Source: Streptomyces dangxiongensis (GTDB taxonomy: Bacteria > Actinomycetota > Actinomycetes > Streptomycetales > Streptomycetaceae). From it: DNA of 64,000 nt. The notes below the pieces were generated by a model. The model was not told where the DNA came from. It saw nothing but the letters and a program-made list of their open reading frames with translations, and did no database searches. The stretch is taken from assembly GCF_003675325.1 (NCBI RefSeq), contig NZ_CP033073.1, positions 5,580,001 through 5,644,000 of the forward strand, written 5' to 3'. This document shows positions 739 to 9,928 of the stretch, piece after piece (the first letter of the stretch is position 1; each line of letters starts with the position of its first letter). The position numbers were made by a program, and so were the translations under genes.

Positions 739-989
739 TCACACCAGCCCCGTGACTGGTGTCCGGCGTCCCCGGGGCTGGCTTGCCCCGGCCGCTCGTA
801 CCCAGTTCCGCAGCGTCTCCGGGTTGACTCCCAGATCAGCGGCGACCGACCTGATCGCAGCTCCGGGCCGCGACTGGTACAGCGCGACCGTCTCCGCCTT
901 GGACTCCGGCGGGTAGTGCTTCATGACCACGTGATGTCCGTTCTCAGATCCTCAAGATCCACGTCTCAAGTGTCCAAAATCCGGGGTCA
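739..989 (-). mobile_element. IS3-family end with truncated orfA
   Basis: Starting at 930 on the minus strand is the first ~57 residues of an IS3-type OrfA (helix-turn-helix, KHYPPESKAETVALY and DLGVNPETLRNWVRAAGAS), after which the reading frame runs into unrelated codons and stops at 739. No orfB, leucine zipper or DDE domain follows, so only one end of the element remains. Upstream of the start, 971-989 reads as the terminal repeat typical of this IS group. The remnant lies directly between the IS110 relic and a cut-off plus-strand gene, so at least two insertion/deletion events are recorded here. Confidence 0.75.
971..989 (-). repeat. IS3-type terminal inverted repeat
   Basis: On the minus strand this reads TGACCCCGGATTTTGGACA, the outer end expected about 60 bases upstream of an IS3 orfA start. 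The partner repeat at the other end is absent because the element is truncated. Confidence 0.6.
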
Positions 990-1142: not shown

Positions 1143-2012
1143 TCAGCCGTGGCGGCGCCGGTAGAGGGCGAAGCCCGCGCAGGCGGCGAGCGCGGTCCAC
1201 GCCATGAACACCAGCGCGGCGACGGGCGCGGACAAGTCGCTGCCGACAAGAACTGAGGTGAACAGCCGTTGGTCCTCCGGCAGGGAGGAGACGTCCACGA
1301 GCATGGCGCGGCCTGCGGCGAACGGCAGCCAGCCGGCGATGTGGTCCAGAGCCTTCCAGGGCATCTGCCCGATGAGGACGGCCAGGAGGCGCTCGGCGAG
1401 GAGGGGGCCGAGGATGAGGATGAGGATGGGGCCGACACGGTTGCGCATCAGGGAGGCGACGGCGGTGCACAGGACCATCCAGCATGCGGACCACAGCATC
1501 AGCCGGCCAATCGGCATGAGCAGGTCGGTGAAGCCGGTCCAGTGGGCGCGGCGGATCAGGACGCCGACGCCGACGGTGAGCAGCTCGGCGGCGGAGGCGG
1601 CCCAGGCGATGACCGCACCGAGGACGGCGCCCGTTGCACACTTTGCCCAGTAGGCGATTTCCCGGCCGCCGACGGTCAGCCAGGTGGTGCGGGCGGTTCC
1701 CCGGATGAGTTCCGTGGAGACAGGCCCGGTGGCCAGGACCATCAGGTAGAAGCCGAGCGTGGAGATCTGGGCGACCTGCGGGGTCCACAGAATGGTGGAC
1801 AGAAGGTCGTCGGTGGTGACCTTGTCGCCGGGGTGCAGAATGAACAGCGAGGCTACGCCGGGATAGGCGGACAGGGCGGCGATGAGAGCGAGCACGATCC
1901 AGGTGGAGCGCAGCCCGGTGAGGTGCCGCAGCTCGAACAGGCAGGCGCGGCGCAGTGCTTCGGTGCGGCTGATGTCTGCGGGCTGGGCGTCAGGGGTGGC
2001 GATGGGGGTCAT
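1143..2012 (-). CDS. ABC-2 type transporter permease
   Basis: The 289-residue protein has about six hydrophobic segments, for example at roughly residues 38-60, 85-105, 125-155, 165-185, 190-212 and 265-285, and a short hydrophilic N-terminus. That layout fits the membrane subunit of an ABC-2 exporter. Its start overlaps the stop of the ATPase gene by 4 bp (ATGA), so the two are translationally coupled and probably form one transporter. The substrate is not readable. The pair faces away from the cationic-peptide locus starting at 3306, and export or self-protection for those peptides is one inferred role. A pigment, drug or lantibiotic-immunity type exporter is an alternative. Confidence 0.8.
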   Translation of the reverse strand: MTPIATPDAQPADISRTEALRRACLFELRHLTGLRSTWIVLALIAALSAYPGVASLFILHPGDKVTTDDLLSTILWTPQVAQISTLGFYLMVLATGPVSTELIRGTARTTWLTVGGREIAYWAKCATGAVLGAVIAWAASAAELLTVGVGVLIRRAHWTGFTDLLMPIGRLMLWSACWMVLCTAVASLMRNRVGPILILILGPLLAERLLAVLIGQMPWKALDHIAGWLPFAAGRAMLVDVSSLPEDQRLFTSVLVGSDLSAPVAALVFMAWTALAACAGFALYRRRHG

Positions 2013-2917: not shown

Positions 2918-3440
2918 GAGCGGTGTGACTCCCGTGTGTAGAAGCCCATTTGATGCGCGCCCAGCACACTAGACGCATGAAGCGGCGGGGGCGTTGAGTT
3001 GTTCTGGCTTCGACGTCGGCAATCGGCCCCACAAATTGGCCATCACTGGCGCCGGCAGGCGTTCGATGAAGGCCTGCGGTGGCCCCACTCCGTGGCCATA
3101 CCCGCAGGCAAGCGGCAGTGGGGCCGCTTGGAGACGTCCGGCGCCGCAGGCTGGCCAGGTGGGGCCAGGTGGCCAATATCGAGGGGCCGCTGAACGACGT
3201 CAGAGCCATTGTTCCTCGGGGTGAAACAACCCGCGAGCCGTGAGCGTCGTATCGGAGGTTGGGGGATCGTGGGTGGTGTGCGACTTTCGGGCGTCGCACC
3301 TGCGTCTGATGCCCGAAGATCTGATGGCGGCACAGATGTTCGCAACGTGAGGATTCTTCCGCGCGGCCAGTTCGGCCGCGTCGCCTCTCTTCTCCCTTTC
3401 ATGAGGGGTGAGGTGTCCTGTCTTCCACTGGAGTTGTGCT
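2918..3440. other. non-coding interval between divergent units
   Basis: About 520 bp with no convincing gene: the open frames here lack codon bias, ribosome sites and family resemblance. It must hold the promoters of the minus-strand ABC operon and of the plus-strand peptide gene at 3441. The one element I can support is the 20-bp motif at 3306-3325 that recurs upstream of the second peptide gene. Confidence 0.5.
3306..3325 (+). promoter_or_regulatory. shared upstream element, copy 1
   Basis: CTGATGCCCGAAGATCTGAT lies 135 bp before the GTG of the first exported peptide and matches 18 of 20 positions of the element at 4330-4349. TGATG recurs 15 bp later (3307 and 3322), as phased half-sites would. 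Its role as activator or repressor site is inferred. Confidence 0.45.
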
Positions 3441-3932
3441 GTGAACAACAAACTCCGCATGACGGCCGCCTCGCTGGCGGCGGCTGTCGCTCTGGGGGTT
3501 GCCGGTCCTGCCGCCCACGCCGCGACCGAGTCCGCTCCGAAGCCGGTGGCCGCCTCGCAGACGGTTCAGCTTGCCAACACGCAGCAGGCGCGGATCCTGA
3601 CGCAGTCGCTGGCCAGCGAGGGCATCAGCGCCCAGGTCGCCGGCAACGGCTCCGCGGTGACGTACGACGCTTCGGCGGTCGCCAAGGCCCCCAACTGGGG
3701 CTGGATCATCAAGGCCCTGAAGAGGGTTCCGGGGGCCTGGACCTGGTCGAAGAACCTCATCAAGAAGGCCGTCTCCCTGGGCAAGACCAAGGGCCTGGCC
3801 TACATCAAGAAGGCCATCAACGAGCTTTCTTCCTGGAGCCCGAAGAAGTGGGTGTGGAAGAGCATCGTGGCCGTCACCGGCTGGGGCACCCAGCTATGGG
3901 ACGCGATCACCTGGATCTACCACCACATGTAA
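3441..3932 (+). CDS. exported cationic Trp-rich helical peptide precursor
   Basis: From GTG 3441 this encodes 163 residues. Residues 1-27 form a clear Sec signal (NNKLRM, then an Ala/Leu core ending AAHA). A polar ~50-residue stretch follows, then a C-terminal ~80 residues with about 13 Lys/Arg against 2 acidic residues, five or more Trp, and amphipathic segments such as GWIIKALKRVPGAWTW and KKWVWKSIV. There is no cysteine. The family is not recognised. Composition resembles membrane-active proteins such as aureocin A53-type bacteriocins, but those are shorter and leaderless, so this is analogy only. GTG 3441 is chosen because an upstream ATG (3408) would spoil the signal peptide. Confidence 0.75.
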   Translation: MNNKLRMTAASLAAAVALGVAGPAAHAATESAPKPVAASQTVQLANTQQARILTQSLASEGISAQVAGNGSAVTYDASAVAKAPNWGWIIKALKRVPGAWTWSKNLIKKAVSLGKTKGLAYIKKAINELSSWSPKKWVWKSIVAVTGWGTQLWDAITWIYHHM

Positions 3933-3952
3933 ACCGACCGAGTGGTCTACCC

Positions 3953-3983
3953 TGGCCCCCGTTGCCGCCCGCAGCGGGGGCCA
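3953..3983 (+). other. hairpin between peptide 1 and its membrane partner
   Basis: A 9-bp perfect stem, TGGCCCCCG (3953-3961) / CGGGGGCCA (3975-3983), starts 20 bases after the peptide stop. No T-run follows, so partial termination or mRNA protection is more likely than full termination. It could lower expression of the downstream gene. Confidence 0.45.
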
Positions 3984-4012
3984 TTGGCATGCACTTGAAG
4001 GAGTCAACTACC

Positions 4013-4318
4013 TTGACAGTTCAGGAACATGGGCGTGCGAAGAAGGATCAGGAAGCGCCGTGGCGCAGCGGCTGGTGGGTTGTGGCGATGGGCTGTGGGC
4101 TCGCGGGGACGGTGCTGTCGATCGTGGGCGGTGCGGGTCCGGTGAAGGCCGCGTGGGCGGCTCTGGCGGTGGCGTGGGTGGCAGCGCTGGGCGGTGGCGT
4201 GTGGTACTGGCGCAAGGGCAACCGTAAGCAGCTGAAGGAGGGCCGGTGGCTGCTGCTCGTCTTGGTGGTGGCGGTGGTCAACCTGGCGGCCAGGCACCCG
4301 GGTTCGTTCCCGCTTTGA
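4013..4318 (+). CDS. small three-span membrane protein
   Basis: From TTG 4013, preceded by a good GAAGGAG site, this gives 101 residues. The N-terminus is charged, then come three hydrophobic segments (WWVVAMGCGLAG, VKAAWAALAVAWVAALGGG, WLLLVLVVAVVNLAA) separated by short basic loops (WRKGNRKQLKEGR). ATG 3989 is in frame but has a poorer ribosome site. No family is recognised. It sits just behind an exported cationic peptide, where immunity proteins of membrane-active peptides are commonly encoded; that role is an inference. The stop TGA at 4316 forms the first bases of a TGATGCCC repeat. Confidence 0.65.
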   Translation: MTVQEHGRAKKDQEAPWRSGWWVVAMGCGLAGTVLSIVGGAGPVKAAWAALAVAWVAALGGGVWYWRKGNRKQLKEGRWLLLVLVVAVVNLAARHPGSFPL

Positions 4319-4329
4319 TGCCCTAAAGG

Positions 4330-4349
4330 CTGATGCCCAAAGATCCGAT
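4330..4349 (+). promoter_or_regulatory. shared upstream element, copy 2
   Basis: CTGATGCCCAAAGATCCGAT matches 3306-3325 at 18 of 20 positions and lies 154 bp before the second peptide GTG. TGATGCCC also occurs 15 bp earlier at 4316, giving direct repeats with a 15-bp period. Confidence 0.45.
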
Positions 4350-4412
4350 ACCGCCGAGGCGGGGTGTGACGGAAGACTTCAGGTGATCGATCGGGCCACT
4401 TCCGGTCAGGCC

Positions 4413-4454
4413 GCCACCGTGCCGCGTGTGGGATGTATCCCGCGGCGCGGTGGC
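4413..4454 (+). other. long leader hairpin before peptide 2
   Basis: A 14-bp stem, GCCACCGTGCCGCG (4413-4426) / CGCGGCGCGGTGGC (4441-4454), with one G-T pair and a 14-base loop, ends 29 bases before GTG 4484. Without a T-run directly after it, it may act as an attenuator or stabiliser in the leader of the second peptide mRNA. Confidence 0.45.
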
Positions 4455-4483
4455 GGTGACAAACCCCCTTTGAGGAGTCTTTC

Positions 4484-4918
4484 GTGAACACGAAACTGCG
4501 CATAGCCGCTGCCACCGCGACCGCCGCTATCGCTCTGGGTGTGGCGGCTCCGCTCGCGTCGGCGTCCGAGGCCGCCCGTACGCCGACTGTCGCCGCGGTG
4601 CAGGCCCAGGCCGTCAAGGACGCCGGTGCGGTCAACGCCTTCACCGTCGTCACCTCCGGCCGCGTGGACGCCCCTCCGGCCGGTGTGACGGCCAAGGGCC
4701 AGATCAACGATGACCTGCGCGAACTCGCCAAGGACATCGTGGACTACCTGAAGAAGAAGGCGAAGGCGGACTACAACAAGGCGAAGGCGGCGGCGAAGAA
4801 GGGCTACGCCGCGTTCGTGAAGTGGGTGAAGTCCCTCAAGCCGAACAACCCCGTCCGGATCATCCTGGAGATCGGCGGGAAGAAGCTGATCGACGTCGTG
4901 ATCACCTTCCTGCGCTGA
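4484..4918 (+). CDS. second exported cationic helical peptide precursor
   Basis: 144 residues from GTG 4484, with GAGGAG about six bases upstream. The signal peptide (NTKLRIAAATATAAIALGVAAPLASAS) is plainly related to that of the first peptide (NNKLRMTAASLAAAVALGVAGPAAHAA). The C-terminal ~70 residues are strongly basic (about 17 Lys/Arg, 8 acidic), lack Cys, and contain Lys-Ala rich helices (YLKKKAKADYNKAKAAAKKG) followed by hydrophobic ends (IILEIGGKKLIDVVITFL). The mature parts of the two peptides are not obviously alignable, so this looks like a paralogous signal with a diverged effector, or a two-component peptide. Function is unknown. Confidence 0.75.
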   Translation: MNTKLRIAAATATAAIALGVAAPLASASEAARTPTVAAVQAQAVKDAGAVNAFTVVTSGRVDAPPAGVTAKGQINDDLRELAKDIVDYLKKKAKADYNKAKAAAKKGYAAFVKWVKSLKPNNPVRIILEIGGKKLIDVVITFLR

Positions 4919-4956
4919 ACCAGCGCAGGCGGTAGCCGGGGATGAGGGGACTCGTG

Positions 4957-5106
4957 ATGGAGCCTGCGATGTGGCGTGTGGTGTGCGTGCTGGGCGCCGC
5001 GCTGGCTGGGCTGGCCGTCTCCGTCGTCCTCTTGCCCGACCGTACCGAGCGCAGGACGGGGCGCACGCGCAAGCCGCGACGTGATCGGTCTGCGTCCTCT
5101 GACTGA
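4957..5106 (+). CDS. 49-residue single-span membrane protein
   Basis: ATG 4957, six bases after AGGGGA, gives 49 residues: MEPAMWRVVCVLGAALAGLA continues into one transmembrane helix, followed by a very basic tail (RTERRTGRTRKPRRDR). It begins 38 bp after the second peptide stop, mirroring the membrane gene that follows the first peptide. Size, topology and position suggest a dedicated partner or immunity factor for the peptide, but no family is recognised. GTG 4954 is an alternative start. The unit then ends at the terminator at 5207. Confidence 0.55.
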   Translation: MEPAMWRVVCVLGAALAGLAVSVVLLPDRTERRTGRTRKPRRDRSASSD

Positions 5107-5206
5107 ACGGTGCCCGGGGATCACCCCCCTCCAGCCTTGGTCAGGCTCATCGGCCCTCGTCTTTGCCCGCGCACTGCAGGGCCGGGCCGGGCACTGTTCA
5201 CCCCCT

Positions 5207-5252
5207 GCGGCTCTCCACCGTGTCCCCCGTGCATGGTGGAGAGCCGCTTTTG
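5207..5252 (+). terminator. strong bidirectional intrinsic terminator
   Basis: A perfect 13-bp stem, GCGGCTCTCCACC (5207-5219) / GGTGGAGAGCCGC (5235-5247), with a 15-base loop, is followed by TTTTGT. It closes the peptide locus and lies before the convergent minus-strand gene ending at 5368. Confidence 0.85.
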
Positions 5253-5367: not shown

Positions 5368-5997
5368 TCAGGACTGGTCTTGATCAGCCGCGCCTGGGAG
5401 CACGACTCCCGGCACTCCAAGATCTGGCAACGCCGGCTCCGTGCGTGGCGGGATGCCGAGCGCCGCCACGCACCGGGTGTCGATGATCTGGTTGAAGTGC
5501 TTCATCCGCCGTGTCGATGCTGTCGAGATACGCGCTTCACGGGTCCGTGCCCAGAACGAGCGGCCGATCTCGCCCGCGAAGATCTCGTCGCACATCGACG
5601 CCAGCCAGTGGTCCGTGAGGTCGCCGAGTTCGAACCACATCTCCCAGTGCGACACCACCAGGTTGACGTACATGTGCTGCCGCCGGAGGAGGACGGTCCG
5701 GGAGGCGTCGGGGCCGCCCCAGCAGTCGAGGTACTCGGGGTTCTCGATGGCCAGCCTGCTGAACTCCATATGCATGGTACGGGTGTTCTGCACCCGGGCA
5801 GCCTTGGCTTCACGGGCCTGAAGTACCAGCGAAACCACCACGCCGACGACGGCCAAGCCGGAGAGGAGCGCGGACACGGCCCCGTATGCCTGGGCGATGT
5901 TGCCAATCCGCTCCCAGTTCTCCCCGTTGCCGTCCAGTGCGGGAAGAGCGAGGGGAGATACAACGACAAGGCCCATCGAGCACGTGACGGCGAGCAA
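5368..5997 (-). CDS. DUF6082-family membrane-anchored protein
   Basis: 209 residues with two N-terminal hydrophobic segments (LAVTCSMGLVVVSPLALPA and AVSALLSGLAVVGVVVSLVL) and a soluble C-terminal domain starting MHMEFSRLAIENPEYLDCWGG, the pattern I associate with DUF6082 proteins of streptomycetes, whose function is unknown. The start is uncertain: TTG 5997 and ATG 5976 are candidates and no clear ribosome site is visible. Such genes are often found as scattered accessory copies, in keeping with the surrounding IS-rich region. It stands alone, convergent with the peptide locus. Confidence 0.6.
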   Translation of the reverse strand: MLAVTCSMGLVVVSPLALPALDGNGENWERIGNIAQAYGAVSALLSGLAVVGVVVSLVLQAREAKAARVQNTRTMHMEFSRLAIENPEYLDCWGGPDASRTVLLRRQHMYVNLVVSHWEMWFELGDLTDHWLASMCDEIFAGEIGRSFWARTREARISTASTRRMKHFNQIIDTRCVAALGIPPRTEPALPDLGVPGVVLPGAADQDQS

Positions 5998-6543: not shown

Positions 6544-7342
6544 TTATCGGATGAGGGCCATGTTGTGCAGCCGGGCGATGCCGAGCATGGCCTGGTGAAC
6601 TCCGTCGCCCTTGAGTCGGCAGTCTCGCAGGATCTTCCAGTTCTTCAGCCGCGACAAGGCGTGTTCGACCCGTGCACGGGCCCGGCGATGGACGGCGTTC
6701 TCTGCTTCCTGCTGTGGGCTGAGGCGGCTCTGACCTCGTCGTTTGCGGTGCGGGATGAGGAGACCGGTGCCTTGGTAGCCGCCATCGGCGATGGTCGGGG
6801 CTCCGCGGCAAGCCCGGTCGACGCCGGACTCCGTGAAGGCCCGGCAGTCGTTGCGGCTGCCGGGCAGCGGGAGGCCGATGGCCACGACCAGGCGGCTGTT
6901 GGCGTCGATGACAACCTGCAGGTTGGTCGAGTACCGGTAGTTCTTGCTCGAGGACGCGATGGTGCGGTCACGGGTGGGCACCAGGGTGCCGTCGACGATG
7001 TAGACGGTGTCCTTGCGTGGCCGGCGGGCCGGGGAGACCGCCAGCAGCGGTGCGAGGTGGTCGAGGATCCTGTCAGCCGCGGACTTCGAGACTCCGAACA
7101 ACGGCGCCACCTGCCGCAACGTGAGGTTCGTGCGCCAGTACGTCGCGCAACACCCGATCTTCAAGCGACAGCCGCCACGGCCGGCCACGCTGAACATCGC
7201 CACCGCGACGCCGTACGAGTGCCACCAGCCTGGCGAACTGCACCTCGGTCAGACCCGCAAACGGCTCGATCCACTTCGGATCACCGGCCTCCACGCCCAG
7301 AGGTGCCGAGACTATGCGGCTTTGGTATTCATATGCCCGCAT
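6544..7342 (-). mobile_element. IS5-family (DDE_Tnp_4) transposase, two frames
   Basis: The N-terminal frame (from about 7342) carries WIEPFAGLTEVQFARLVALV and GRPWRLSLEDRVL. The C-terminal frame (ending 6544) continues with ATYWRTNLTLRQVAPLFGVSKSAADRIL and the DDE domain, including IVDGTLVP, ADGGYQG and an ARVEHALSRLK helix. The switch falls near 7150-7160, where about five bases of the expected LLVATYW coding sequence appear to be missing. This is probably a disabling deletion, although some IS5 groups use programmed frameshifting. AGAGGTTGTCCCGTA near 6511 is a possible left terminus; I could not find its inverted partner on the right. Confidence 0.75.
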
Positions 7343-8004: not shown

Positions 8005-8301
8005 CTATCGCGGGGCCTGAGGCCTCCGACGTCTGCCGGTCCCTGGACCGAGCCTCGGCGCTGCCTCCGGGGCCGGGGCGGCCTCGGTCCGGGGAAACAG
8101 GAGGCGCCGCGCCTCCGCGAGATTCGCCGCGAAGCCGTGCGGCTCCCACATGTGCCCGTTCCACCGCTGGATCGCCCGCGGAGCGCCGGGGTTCAGATGT
8201 GATCCCCTCGGACCGTCACCGCTCAGGAGAGGTACGGCGCGGAGCTGCCCGATCCTCGCGTCACGGCGCTCGGCCCACTGGGACAGGGGTTCATCGTCCA
8301 T
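8005..8301 (-). CDS. DUF6087-family small protein
   Basis: 98 residues beginning MDDEPLSQWAERRDARIGQL, with PRGSHLNPGAPRAIQRWNGHMW and ANLAEARRLLFP. This pattern fits DUF6087, a small soluble family found in streptomycetes without a known role. ATG 8301 follows AGGA. The preceding minus-strand small ORF stops 18 bases upstream, so the two probably share a transcript. The last ~25 residues are Pro/Arg rich and likely disordered. Confidence 0.55.
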   Translation of the reverse strand: MDDEPLSQWAERRDARIGQLRAVPLLSGDGPRGSHLNPGAPRAIQRWNGHMWEPHGFAANLAEARRLLFPRTEAAPAPEAAPRLGPGTGRRRRPQAPR

Positions 8302-8319
8302 TCCTCGGAGGGTAGTGGC

Positions 8320-8466
8320 TCAGGAGAGCCGGTGTTCCCAGCGCAGTGACGGGCTCTGGTCGATCCAGTACCGGTGGGACGCGGTCGTCGCGCGAAGGCG
8401 AATGGCGTCGATGTCCGGTTCCCCGGCGTTCTGCCAGGCGACAAGGGACCGCTCGACAACTGTCAC
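8320..8466 (-). CDS. 48-residue hypothetical protein upstream of DUF6087
   Basis: From GTG 8466 the frame gives 48 residues including ERSLVAWQNAGEPDIDAIRL and SHRYWIDQSPSLRWEHRL, an ordinary soluble composition with good third-position GC. It stops 18 bases before the DUF6087 start, an operon-like spacing. A GGAGG lies almost adjacent to the GTG, which is too close to be ideal, so the start is uncertain. I do not recognise it. Confidence 0.35.
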   Translation of the reverse strand: MTVVERSLVAWQNAGEPDIDAIRLRATTASHRYWIDQSPSLRWEHRLS

Positions 8467-8734
8467 ACCTCCGCGCTCACGGGACGGTCCTGGCGTAACT
8501 GCTTCCCCCGGCGGGGTGCGATGCCGCACACCCCAGGATCGGAAGGGGGATATTCCCCCACGGACGTCCAGTCGGAGCGGCCTGCGACTACAGTCGAGCG
8601 AGCGGCACTTCCGGTCCGTCAGGGGCCGCAGGGTGAGGCCGCGTCGGCCCCTGCTGCCGGCGCGTGGCATGACACCGTGGCGATGGTGGCAGGGAGGGGC
8701 AGCGCGGCCGATGCGTGAGGGAACGGGGAAGCCG

Positions 8735-9928
8735 ATGGACTCCGGCCGAACGGGGCAGTCGGCGGCCGGCATCCTGTACCGGTTCCTCACTGTCGAGCGC
8801 GCACACCGCGAGGCTCTCGCGCCGCGGGTGGTCGCCGCCGTCGGGCGTGAGCGGCTCGACCAGATCATGGACGGTACCCGCGAACGCGTCGGCGAGATCA
8901 CCGGCGTACGGGACAACCCCGACGGGCTGGTGATCGAAGGCACCAAGGGACGCGCCCTCGCCTTCGCCACCACCAGCGACGGCCATGTGCTCGATGGACT
9001 CCTGATCGCACCGGGCGCGTACCGCGCGCCGCGCCTGCGCATCCCTCTCGGGGCGCGCGCCGCCCTCGCGTGGACCGTGTGGGTGCTGCTCCTCGCCGCG
9101 CGGATCGACGCGTGCTGGCAGGCCCCCTCCCGCATCGCCTGGTGCGGCCGCCTGCTCATCGTCGCGGCCGGGTACCTGATCGTGGAGGGCTGGCGCACCC
9201 CGGCCCGGCTGCCGTGGTGGATACGCCGCGCCGTGGAGGCGGGCGCGCTCGTGGGCCTTGCCTCCGCGTGCCGACTGCCGGGACTGCCCAGGTCGGGCGG
9301 CGGGGACGCCGATCTGTTCCTGGGCGTGGCCCTGATCGCCGTCTTCGGATGCTTCCTGGTCCGGGCGCGGCGCCATCGCTGGGGGACCGCCGTGTCGCGG
9401 CCTCTCACCTTCCCTCTGCAGGGCGGGAACTGGTACATCGCACAAGGCGGCGGGCGAGGCCTGAACCATCACACGGCCTTCCCCGAGCAGCGTGGCGCCC
9501 TGGACGTGATCCAGGTCGGCCCGGGCGGTGCGCGAGCACGCGGTGCGGGCACCCGCGGAGGAAGCGAGAGCCATCTCGTGTACGGGCAGGTTCTGCACGC
9601 ACCGTGCGACGGCACGGTCGTCTCCGCCGCCGGTCACATCGACGACCAGGAACCCGGCACCATCCGGTACCAACCCCCTTACGGCAACCACGTGTTCATC
9701 GACACAGGCACCGAAATCGTCAAGCTCGCCCACCTGCGCCGCGGCACCGTGACGGTGACGACGGGCGATCCCGTGCGCGCCGGGCAGGTGCTCGGTGAAG
9801 TGGGCAACTCCGGCAACAGCACGGAGCCCCACCTGCACATCCACGCCGAACGTGACGGCGTCGGGCTGGATCTGGAATTCACCGGGATCACGGGGCCACT
9901 GTGCCGGGGGCGGACCGTCCGCACGTAG
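8735..9928 (+). CDS. membrane-anchored M23 (LytM) metallopeptidase
   Basis: About 397 residues. Residues ~1-95 are a soluble N-terminal region, followed by hydrophobic spans (ARAALAWTVWVLLLAARI, LLIVAAGYLIVEGW, LFLGVALIAVFGCFLV) and a C-terminal LytM domain. Zinc ligands are readable as NHHTAFPEQRGALD (H and D) and PHLHIH (HxH), so the domain looks catalytically complete and would cut peptidoglycan crosslinks outside the membrane. ATG 8735 has GGGGAA five bases upstream; ATG 8711 is an in-frame alternative. The gene is single and convergent with the SDR gene 13 bp downstream. Confidence 0.8.
   Translation: MDSGRTGQSAAGILYRFLTVERAHREALAPRVVAAVGRERLDQIMDGTRERVGEITGVRDNPDGLVIEGTKGRALAFATTSDGHVLDGLLIAPGAYRAPRLRIPLGARAALAWTVWVLLLAARIDACWQAPSRIAWCGRLLIVAAGYLIVEGWRTPARLPWWIRRAVEAGALVGLASACRLPGLPRSGGGDADLFLGVALIAVFGCFLVRARRHRWGTAVSRPLTFPLQGGNWYIAQGGGRGLNHHTAFPEQRGALDVIQVGPGGARARGAGTRGGSESHLVYGQVLHAPCDGTVVSAAGHIDDQEPGTIRYQPPYGNHVFIDTGTEIVKLAHLRRGTVTVTTGDPVRAGQVLGEVGNSGNSTEPHLHIHAERDGVGLDLEFTGITGPLCRGRTVRT

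Follow-up and report, generated by a model that had tools for sequence, protein, structure and literature searches.

A compact set of four open reading frames (ORFs), P1 to P4, lies near the start of a 64,000-nucleotide (nt) stretch of the Streptomyces dangxiongensis genome (8.16 Mb, 2 contigs), referred to here as the window (contig NZ_CP033073.1, positions 5,580,001 to 5,644,000). P1 and P3 encode precursors of secreted cationic peptides, each followed by a gene for a small membrane protein (P2 and P4, respectively), and a pair of ATP-binding cassette (ABC) transporter genes is oriented divergently from P1 (Table 1). Both precursors begin with a Sec-type signal ending in A-x-A, a region common to all 24 aligned family members described below, with the cut site at residue 27 judged by eye. 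After removal of this 27-residue signal, the net charge is +11 for P1 and +10 for P3, and neither contains cysteine. The last 85 residues of P1 (79 to 163) hold 10 tryptophans and 13 lysines, compared to a single tryptophan in residues 71 to 144 of P3.

Membrane spans were assigned by a hydropathy scan rather than by a trained topology predictor, giving three segments for P2 and one for P4. The P2 start is preceded by AAGGAG, and P4 could alternatively begin at an ATG at position 4942, which would lengthen it to 54 amino acids (aa). The hairpin that closes the set has 17 pairs when G-T pairs are counted, with 13-bp perfect arms inside it. Much of this layout had been described in an original prediction made by reading the DNA and its translations, and our analysis confirms it overall: the four ORFs, the Sec-type signals, the cysteine-free cationic C-terminal domains, the small hydrophobic protein after each peptide gene, and the 13-bp terminator all stand, as does the charge of P1, whereas the charge of P3, put at about +9, came to +10. 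None of the four proteins matched a curated Pfam or NCBIfam family above its cut-off.

Table 1. Features of the cassette and the adjoining transporter genes, in window positions (aa, amino acids)
Feature	Position	Strand	Basis
ABC transporter membrane subunit (permease), 289 aa, probable self-protection	1143..2012	-	No Pfam match at E ≤ 1; relatives adjoin family genes
ABC transporter ATPase, 302 aa	2009..2917	-	PF00005, E 2.7e-26; best NCBIfam model TIGR03740, below cut-off
18-bp motif 5' of P1, possible operator or promoter element	3308..3325	+	GATGCCCRAAGATCYGAT, 0 mismatches
P1, secreted Trp/Lys-rich cationic peptide precursor, 163 aa, GTG start	3441..3932	+	Translation; family profile match; charge and composition
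P2, three-span small membrane protein, proposed cognate immunity, 101 aa, TTG start	4013..4318	+	Translation, hydropathy, position
18-bp motif, second copy, 5' of P3	4332..4349	+	0 mismatches
P3, secreted Lys-rich cationic peptide precursor, 144 aa, GTG start	4484..4918	+	Translation; family profile match; C-terminal domain modelled with four helices
P4, putative one-span protein with Arg-rich tail, 49 aa, ATG start	4957..5106	+	Translation; similar ORF on the HUAS plasmid
Terminator-like hairpin, end of set	5207..5247	+	17-pair stem followed by T-rich tail

Distribution and predicted structure of the peptide family

Searches were made in a sample of 392 Streptomyces genomes, which covers part of the genus and includes the S. 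dangxiongensis genome itself. As single proteins at E ≤ 0.01, P1 found matches in 24 of the 392 genomes and P3 in 31; many of the weaker rows rested on the signal peptide alone or on chance and were dropped after reading. A profile built from 21 C-terminal domains (A3) matched 29 of the 392 genomes in 31 places at E ≤ 1e-3 with both P1 and P3 among them, where the 21 rows match their own profile by construction. The 24-row alignment A1 additionally contains L009, L006, and L015, and six sequences whose similarity lies mostly in the signal (L037, L041, L043, L044, L049, and L052) were excluded from both. Judged by these profile matches, P1 and P3 belong to the same unnamed family, although they have diverged from each other. 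All 24 members scanned against Pfam and NCBIfam fell short of every model cut-off, in keeping with the original prediction, which had recognised no known family.

The family is patchy and, in the genomes sampled, essentially restricted to Streptomyces. In a class-level draw of 296 genomes, A3 matched five: the S. dangxiongensis genome, two more Streptomyces (E 6e-16 and 4e-7), and two genomes outside the genus whose matches (E 0.004 and 0.007) were too weak for us to accept them as members. A search of 61 near relatives with P3 at E ≤ 1e-6 returned one genome (G008) besides its own. Relatives in named records all belong to Streptomyces, and the hosts of 12 named loci, 4 of which duplicate genomes of the 392-genome sample, include S. 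curacoi, S. bicolor, S. toyocaensis, S. rimosus, and S. spiroverticillatus. The C-terminal domains of all 24 aligned members lack cysteine and carry a net charge of +3 to +16. Over 276 pairs, the signal averages 46% pairwise identity, compared to 29% for the C-terminal domain and 24% for the linker.

AlphaFold2 was run with 13 sequences as input. The C-terminal domain of P3 is predicted to form four helices (residues 72 to 92, 94 to 106, 108 to 117, and 123 to 143), with a predicted local distance difference test score (pLDDT) of 56 in the block 71 to 80, 78 to 89 in later blocks, and below 50 for residues 1 to 74. For P1, the model has a small beta-alpha-beta-beta region at residues 39 to 76 followed by helices up to residue 162, with a mean score of 75 for the best of five models (range, 61 to 75).

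A second set of secreted proteins occurs in the same genus. Five of the excluded sequences (L037, L041, L043, L044, and L049), retrieved mainly via the signal peptide, are about 175 aa long and combine a similar signal with a different C-terminal half, and in four of the five a KR pair precedes ALGMGTIVRKLIVAGLRHGG. The L037 and L044 proteins have no Pfam model above cut-off.

Membrane partners, transporter, plasmid copies, and upstream motif

Directly downstream of 30 of the 31 family genes lies a small same-strand ORF whose product has between one and three hydrophobic segments, a permissive count made without a control (29 of 30 loci in one scan plus contig C14 of genome G194 in another). 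Under a strict rule (80 to 125 aa, at least two segments, a purine-run ribosome-binding site, and a start within 260 nt), a partner follows 25 of the 31 family genes versus 2 of 240 control ORFs (Fisher p 1.8e-27), the controls being drawn from the family neighbourhoods and the window, with at least three regions present twice under two locus identifiers. The strict rule misses six family genes, including the P1 relative of genome G348 and P3 of the window, the latter because P4 falls short of the required length. A clear downstream partner is present in 11 of the 12 named loci; in the remaining one, from S. spiroverticillatus, a single partner gene has a family gene on either side. Clustering placed 23 of 30 partners, P2 included, in one linkage group, a grouping favoured by the statistics, which were computed without composition correction and with the G194 C14 partner represented by 68 residues. 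Across 27 pairs, the distances among peptides and those among partners are correlated (Mantel r 0.68; 0 of 2000 permutations).

Because related genes recur in other species as pairs of a secreted peptide and a membrane protein, the locus is more than a chance arrangement. The original prediction would have suffered had orthologues of the peptides consistently occurred without the membrane genes, and the profile search for co-occurrence did not refute it. We propose, from sequence and position, that P2 is a cognate immunity protein. P4 differs from the three-span partners in having one hydrophobic segment, and an immunity role for it is weakly supported.

The transporter is closely associated with the family. 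Relatives of the permease at E ≤ 1e-20 occur in 10 of the 392 genomes, all of them family genomes and each 1.3 to 1.6 kb from a family gene; with the S. dangxiongensis genome excluded, 9 of 9 permease genomes fall within the 28 of 391 that carry the family (P 1.3e-11). Plasmid records contain six permease relatives at E ≤ 1e-10, all in Streptomyces and all adjoining both a family gene and a gene for a small hydrophobic protein. The commonest order in the neighbourhoods examined is peptide, partner, ATPase, and permease on one strand. An ABC ATPase of this kind lies beside the peptide in 12 of the 29 family genomes, counting G104 and G063, where the ATPase adjoining the peptide gene is more distant (38 to 39% identity); no such ATPase was found at 1e-5 in the scanned neighbourhoods, some of them short, of the other family genomes. 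The best NCBIfam model for the ATPase is that of the lantibiotic-protection ATPase TIGR03740 (151.2 bits, E 3.4e-44), below its cut-off of 309.75. The divergent pair had been taken for an exporter; the pair itself is as described, but since P1 and P3 already carry Sec-type signals, self-protection is more likely than export.

Much of the cassette recurs on plasmids. On the linear plasmid NZ_CP106796.1 of Streptomyces sp. HUAS 14-6, a divergent permease and ATPase are followed by relatives of P1, P2, and P3 in the order and orientation of the window, with identities of 45% (permease), 59% (ATPase), 38% (P1), 24% (P2), and 63% (P3). The place of P4 is taken there by an unannotated 45-aa ORF with one span and an Arg-rich tail, found by reading the frames. 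Between the two copies, the C-terminal domain is more similar than the linker in both P3 (69% versus 38%) and P1 (40% versus 28%). Five linear plasmids of S. anulatus carry a single-peptide version with a partner and an ABC pair; the family match was computed in two of the five, and the other three have the identical peptide protein accession. Transfer, which the original prediction had considered plausible, is supported by these plasmid copies in other strains.

An 18-bp motif, GATGCCCRAAGATCYGAT, precedes both peptide genes of the window, starting 133 nt ahead of P1 and 152 nt ahead of P3, and no other site in the genome resembles it at two or fewer mismatches. The HUAS plasmid has a similar site 138 nt ahead of its P1-like gene and another 151 nt ahead of its P3-like gene, and further ones are found 101 to 141 nt before both family genes of G194 and those of G314 and G343. 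These sites in relatives have 0 to 4 mismatches, compared to at least 4, and usually 5 or more, in 50 shuffles of each region tested (plasmid regions were not shuffled). The motif is absent from 24 of the 32 upstream regions scanned, and the motif matrix was built from the 8 positive regions. It may serve as an operator or promoter element. LuxR-type genes occur near the family relatives on the HUAS plasmid and in G314, and those on the minus strand near two motif-bearing family loci (L149, 8787 to 9101, and L062, 7982 to 9990) are candidate regulators.

Several neighbouring genes were noted. Transposase-related ORFs on the minus strand flank the cassette (window 739 to 930, PF01527, and 6544 to 7203, PF01609), an arrangement compatible with past transfer. 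A DUF6082 gene (5368 to 5997, minus strand, E 3e-46) adjoins the terminator and has relatives at E ≤ 1e-20 in 6 of the 61 near genomes, its own included. About 3 kb downstream of the cassette, an ORF on the plus strand (8150 to 9928) encodes an M23 peptidase domain (PF01551, E 1e-13). All five S. anulatus plasmids (L152 to L156) have an annotated M23 family metallopeptidase gene after the permease; a tblastn search with the L152 protein at 1e-5 found nothing in 47 further family neighbourhoods, including the first 11 kb of the window, and the plasmid M23 protein did not match the M23 ORF of the window.

A bacteriocin reading and its rivals

Taken together, the locus rather probably encodes a Sec-exported, membrane-active, and likely two-peptide bacteriocin with a membrane immunity protein and a self-protection ABC transporter. 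A bacteriocin with immunity is the best supported interpretation because the peptides occur together with a membrane partner and a dedicated ABC transporter and because plasmids carry the cassette as well. It was one of two interpretations offered originally; the other, structural surface peptides, agrees poorly with the patchy distribution. From gene content and predicted products we infer killing, immunity, two-peptide synergy, processing, and regulation as follows. The Sec pathway would export P1 and P3, signal peptidase would cut near residue 27, and the variable linker would be either retained or removed as a pro-region. The cysteine-free, cationic, helical C-terminal domains could then insert into and permeabilise the membranes of competitors, probably Gram-positive. 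P2, and perhaps also P4, would act as the immunity protein of the producer, and the divergent ABC transporter would rid the producing cell's membrane of peptide. The upstream motif common to both peptide genes may switch on P1-P2 and P3-P4 jointly, and carriage of the cassette on chromosomes and linear plasmids would suit a competitive trait.

Several observations weigh against this interpretation. Family-wide, the C-terminal domain is barely more conserved than the linker (0.29 versus 0.24), and no dedicated protease for the linker was identified. Structure prediction, one of the checks suggested originally, gave helical C-terminal domains for P1 and P3, but searches of structure libraries gave no convincing match and listed no member of the aureocin A53-like family, and of nine predicted helices, only two are more amphipathic than their own shuffles at 0.05. 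Compared with a profile of three sequences, lacticin Q, epidermicin, and aureocin A53, the family scored 16.0 with an HHalign probability of 4.6%; 200 column shuffles of this comparison averaged 9.4, and one of the 200 reached 16.0, so that the comparison is a hint and does not establish homology to aureocin-like peptides. The P3-like gene on contig C36 of G194 is the sole family gene (1 of 31) without a membrane partner. Co-divergence and pairing fit cognate pairs but could reflect mere linkage. Finally, most of the 29 family genomes have a single family gene, and two-peptide action is therefore not general.

This last point bears on the strongest alternative, that two independent one-peptide bacteriocins are adjacent, P1 with P2 and P3 with P4, each acting alone. 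We regard it as a serious contender, if a somewhat improbable one: P1 and P3 each have their own motif copy and downstream membrane ORF, a single peptide gene is the rule in family loci, and G348 carries a P1-like gene with no second family gene. Pulling the other way, P4 is unlike the three-span partners, the order P1-P2-P3 is found again on the HUAS plasmid, S. spiroverticillatus has peptide, partner, and peptide in a row, and G194 holds both a P1-like and a P3-like gene, on separate contigs and each with the motif.

That P1 and P3 are extracellular signals, sensed or cleared by the membrane proteins and the ABC transporter, seems unlikely. Export, patchy distribution, the transporter, and the LuxR-type genes close to the relatives on the HUAS plasmid and in G314 would all suit signalling, but Pfam lists neither a sensor kinase nor a receptor domain for P2, P4, or the permease, and a private pump with a small membrane protein is typical of self-immunity. 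Signals rarely have mature parts of 60 to 85 residues with a strong positive charge. Structural or developmental peptides coating the cell wall, hyphae, or spores are very unlikely: Sec-type signals would serve them and cationic Lys-rich domains could bind wall polymers, but presence in 29 of 392 genomes, carriage on plasmids, sequence divergence, and a dedicated ABC pump all argue otherwise. Equally hard to credit is a membrane-active factor whose main targets are eukaryotes, such as fungi or protozoa, and not bacteria; cationic helical peptides can act on many membranes, yet the adjacent membrane partner and ABC pump suggest that the bacterial producer itself needs protection.

Assuming that the bacteriocin interpretation holds, the locus looks like part of an undescribed, patchy, and partly plasmid-borne family of bacterial weapons. 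It would be a source of new antibacterial peptides from a family outside Pfam and NCBIfam carried by about 7% of the Streptomyces sampled, and it would offer a clean peptide and immunity pair for probing how a small membrane protein recognises a helical bacteriocin. Streptomyces is a classic antibiotic producer, and to our knowledge unmodified helical bacteriocins from its phylum have hardly been described. More tentatively, and with confidence a little short of even, we suggest a new bacteriocin class, made up of Sec-exported pro-bacteriocins in which the pro-region is distinct from a saposin-like killer domain. Each would be paired with a small membrane immunity protein and often with a dedicated ABC pump, the class would spread on linear plasmids as a private Streptomyces weapon, and the two-peptide cassette of the window would be switched on through a private operator before each peptide gene.

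Comparison with known bacteriocin systems

No description of the locus turned up in searches of the open-licence literature, including PMC11580447, PMC6131525, PMC6072434, and PMC7616364, which does not disprove prior publication. As far as its accessible text goes, a 2024 survey states that all characterised leaderless bacteriocins had come from Bacillota, and it predicts aureocin-like leaderless core peptides with a mean of 55 aa in Streptomyces (PMC11580447).

In lactic acid bacteria, the Sec-dependent and the two-peptide bacteriocins of class II are small cationic peptides exported by Sec and encoded next to an immunity gene, and in the two-peptide systems two peptides share one membrane protein. 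Similarly, the cassette combines Sec-type signals and small cationic peptides with an adjacent gene of putative immunity type, and adjacent peptide genes share a membrane-protein gene in the window, on the HUAS plasmid, and in S. spiroverticillatus. It differs from class II systems in its longer precursors with a linker, the additional ABC pair, the phylum, and the lack of any class II model above cut-off. The transporter resembles the LanF-type lantibiotic-protection transporters (TIGR03740) in the best model of its ATPase and in adjoining the gene of an exported peptide, but it misses the model cut-off, and lanthionine genes were not noticed adjacent to it, with no specific search made for them.

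There are also parallels with the helical bacteriocins. Aureocin A53 and lacticin Q (PF11758, Bacteriocin_IIi) are likewise small, cysteine-free, and cationic; P1, unlike P3, is Trp-rich, and the C-terminal domain of P3 is predicted to have four helices. In contrast to the leaderless aureocin type, a Sec-type signal and a linker here precede a domain of 60 to 85 residues, and PF11758 matched none of the 24 family members at E ≤ 1 (positive control, lacticin Q, E 2e-28), so that membership in the leaderless aureocin A53-like family was rejected. Immunity in the leaderless group involves membrane proteins and ABC transport, going by the titles of works cited in PMC11580447 and PMC6131525. With the enterocin AS-48 type, the locus shares cationic, cysteine-free, helical peptides, a small candidate immunity protein, and accessory ABC genes; accessory ABC operons give higher immunity and production for both enterocin AS-48 and carnocyclin A (PMC6131525, in the part available). 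It departs from that type in the Sec-type signal, with nothing pointing to circularisation, and Pfam at E ≤ 1 found no DUF95/SpoIIM-type protein among the six genes, P2, P4, and the permease included. A helical, saposin-like fold without cysteine is found in many bacteriocins of the circular and leaderless types, as the accessible text of PMC6072434 describes. The best reading of the cassette is that its peptides would act in the manner of the aureocin and AS-48 group.

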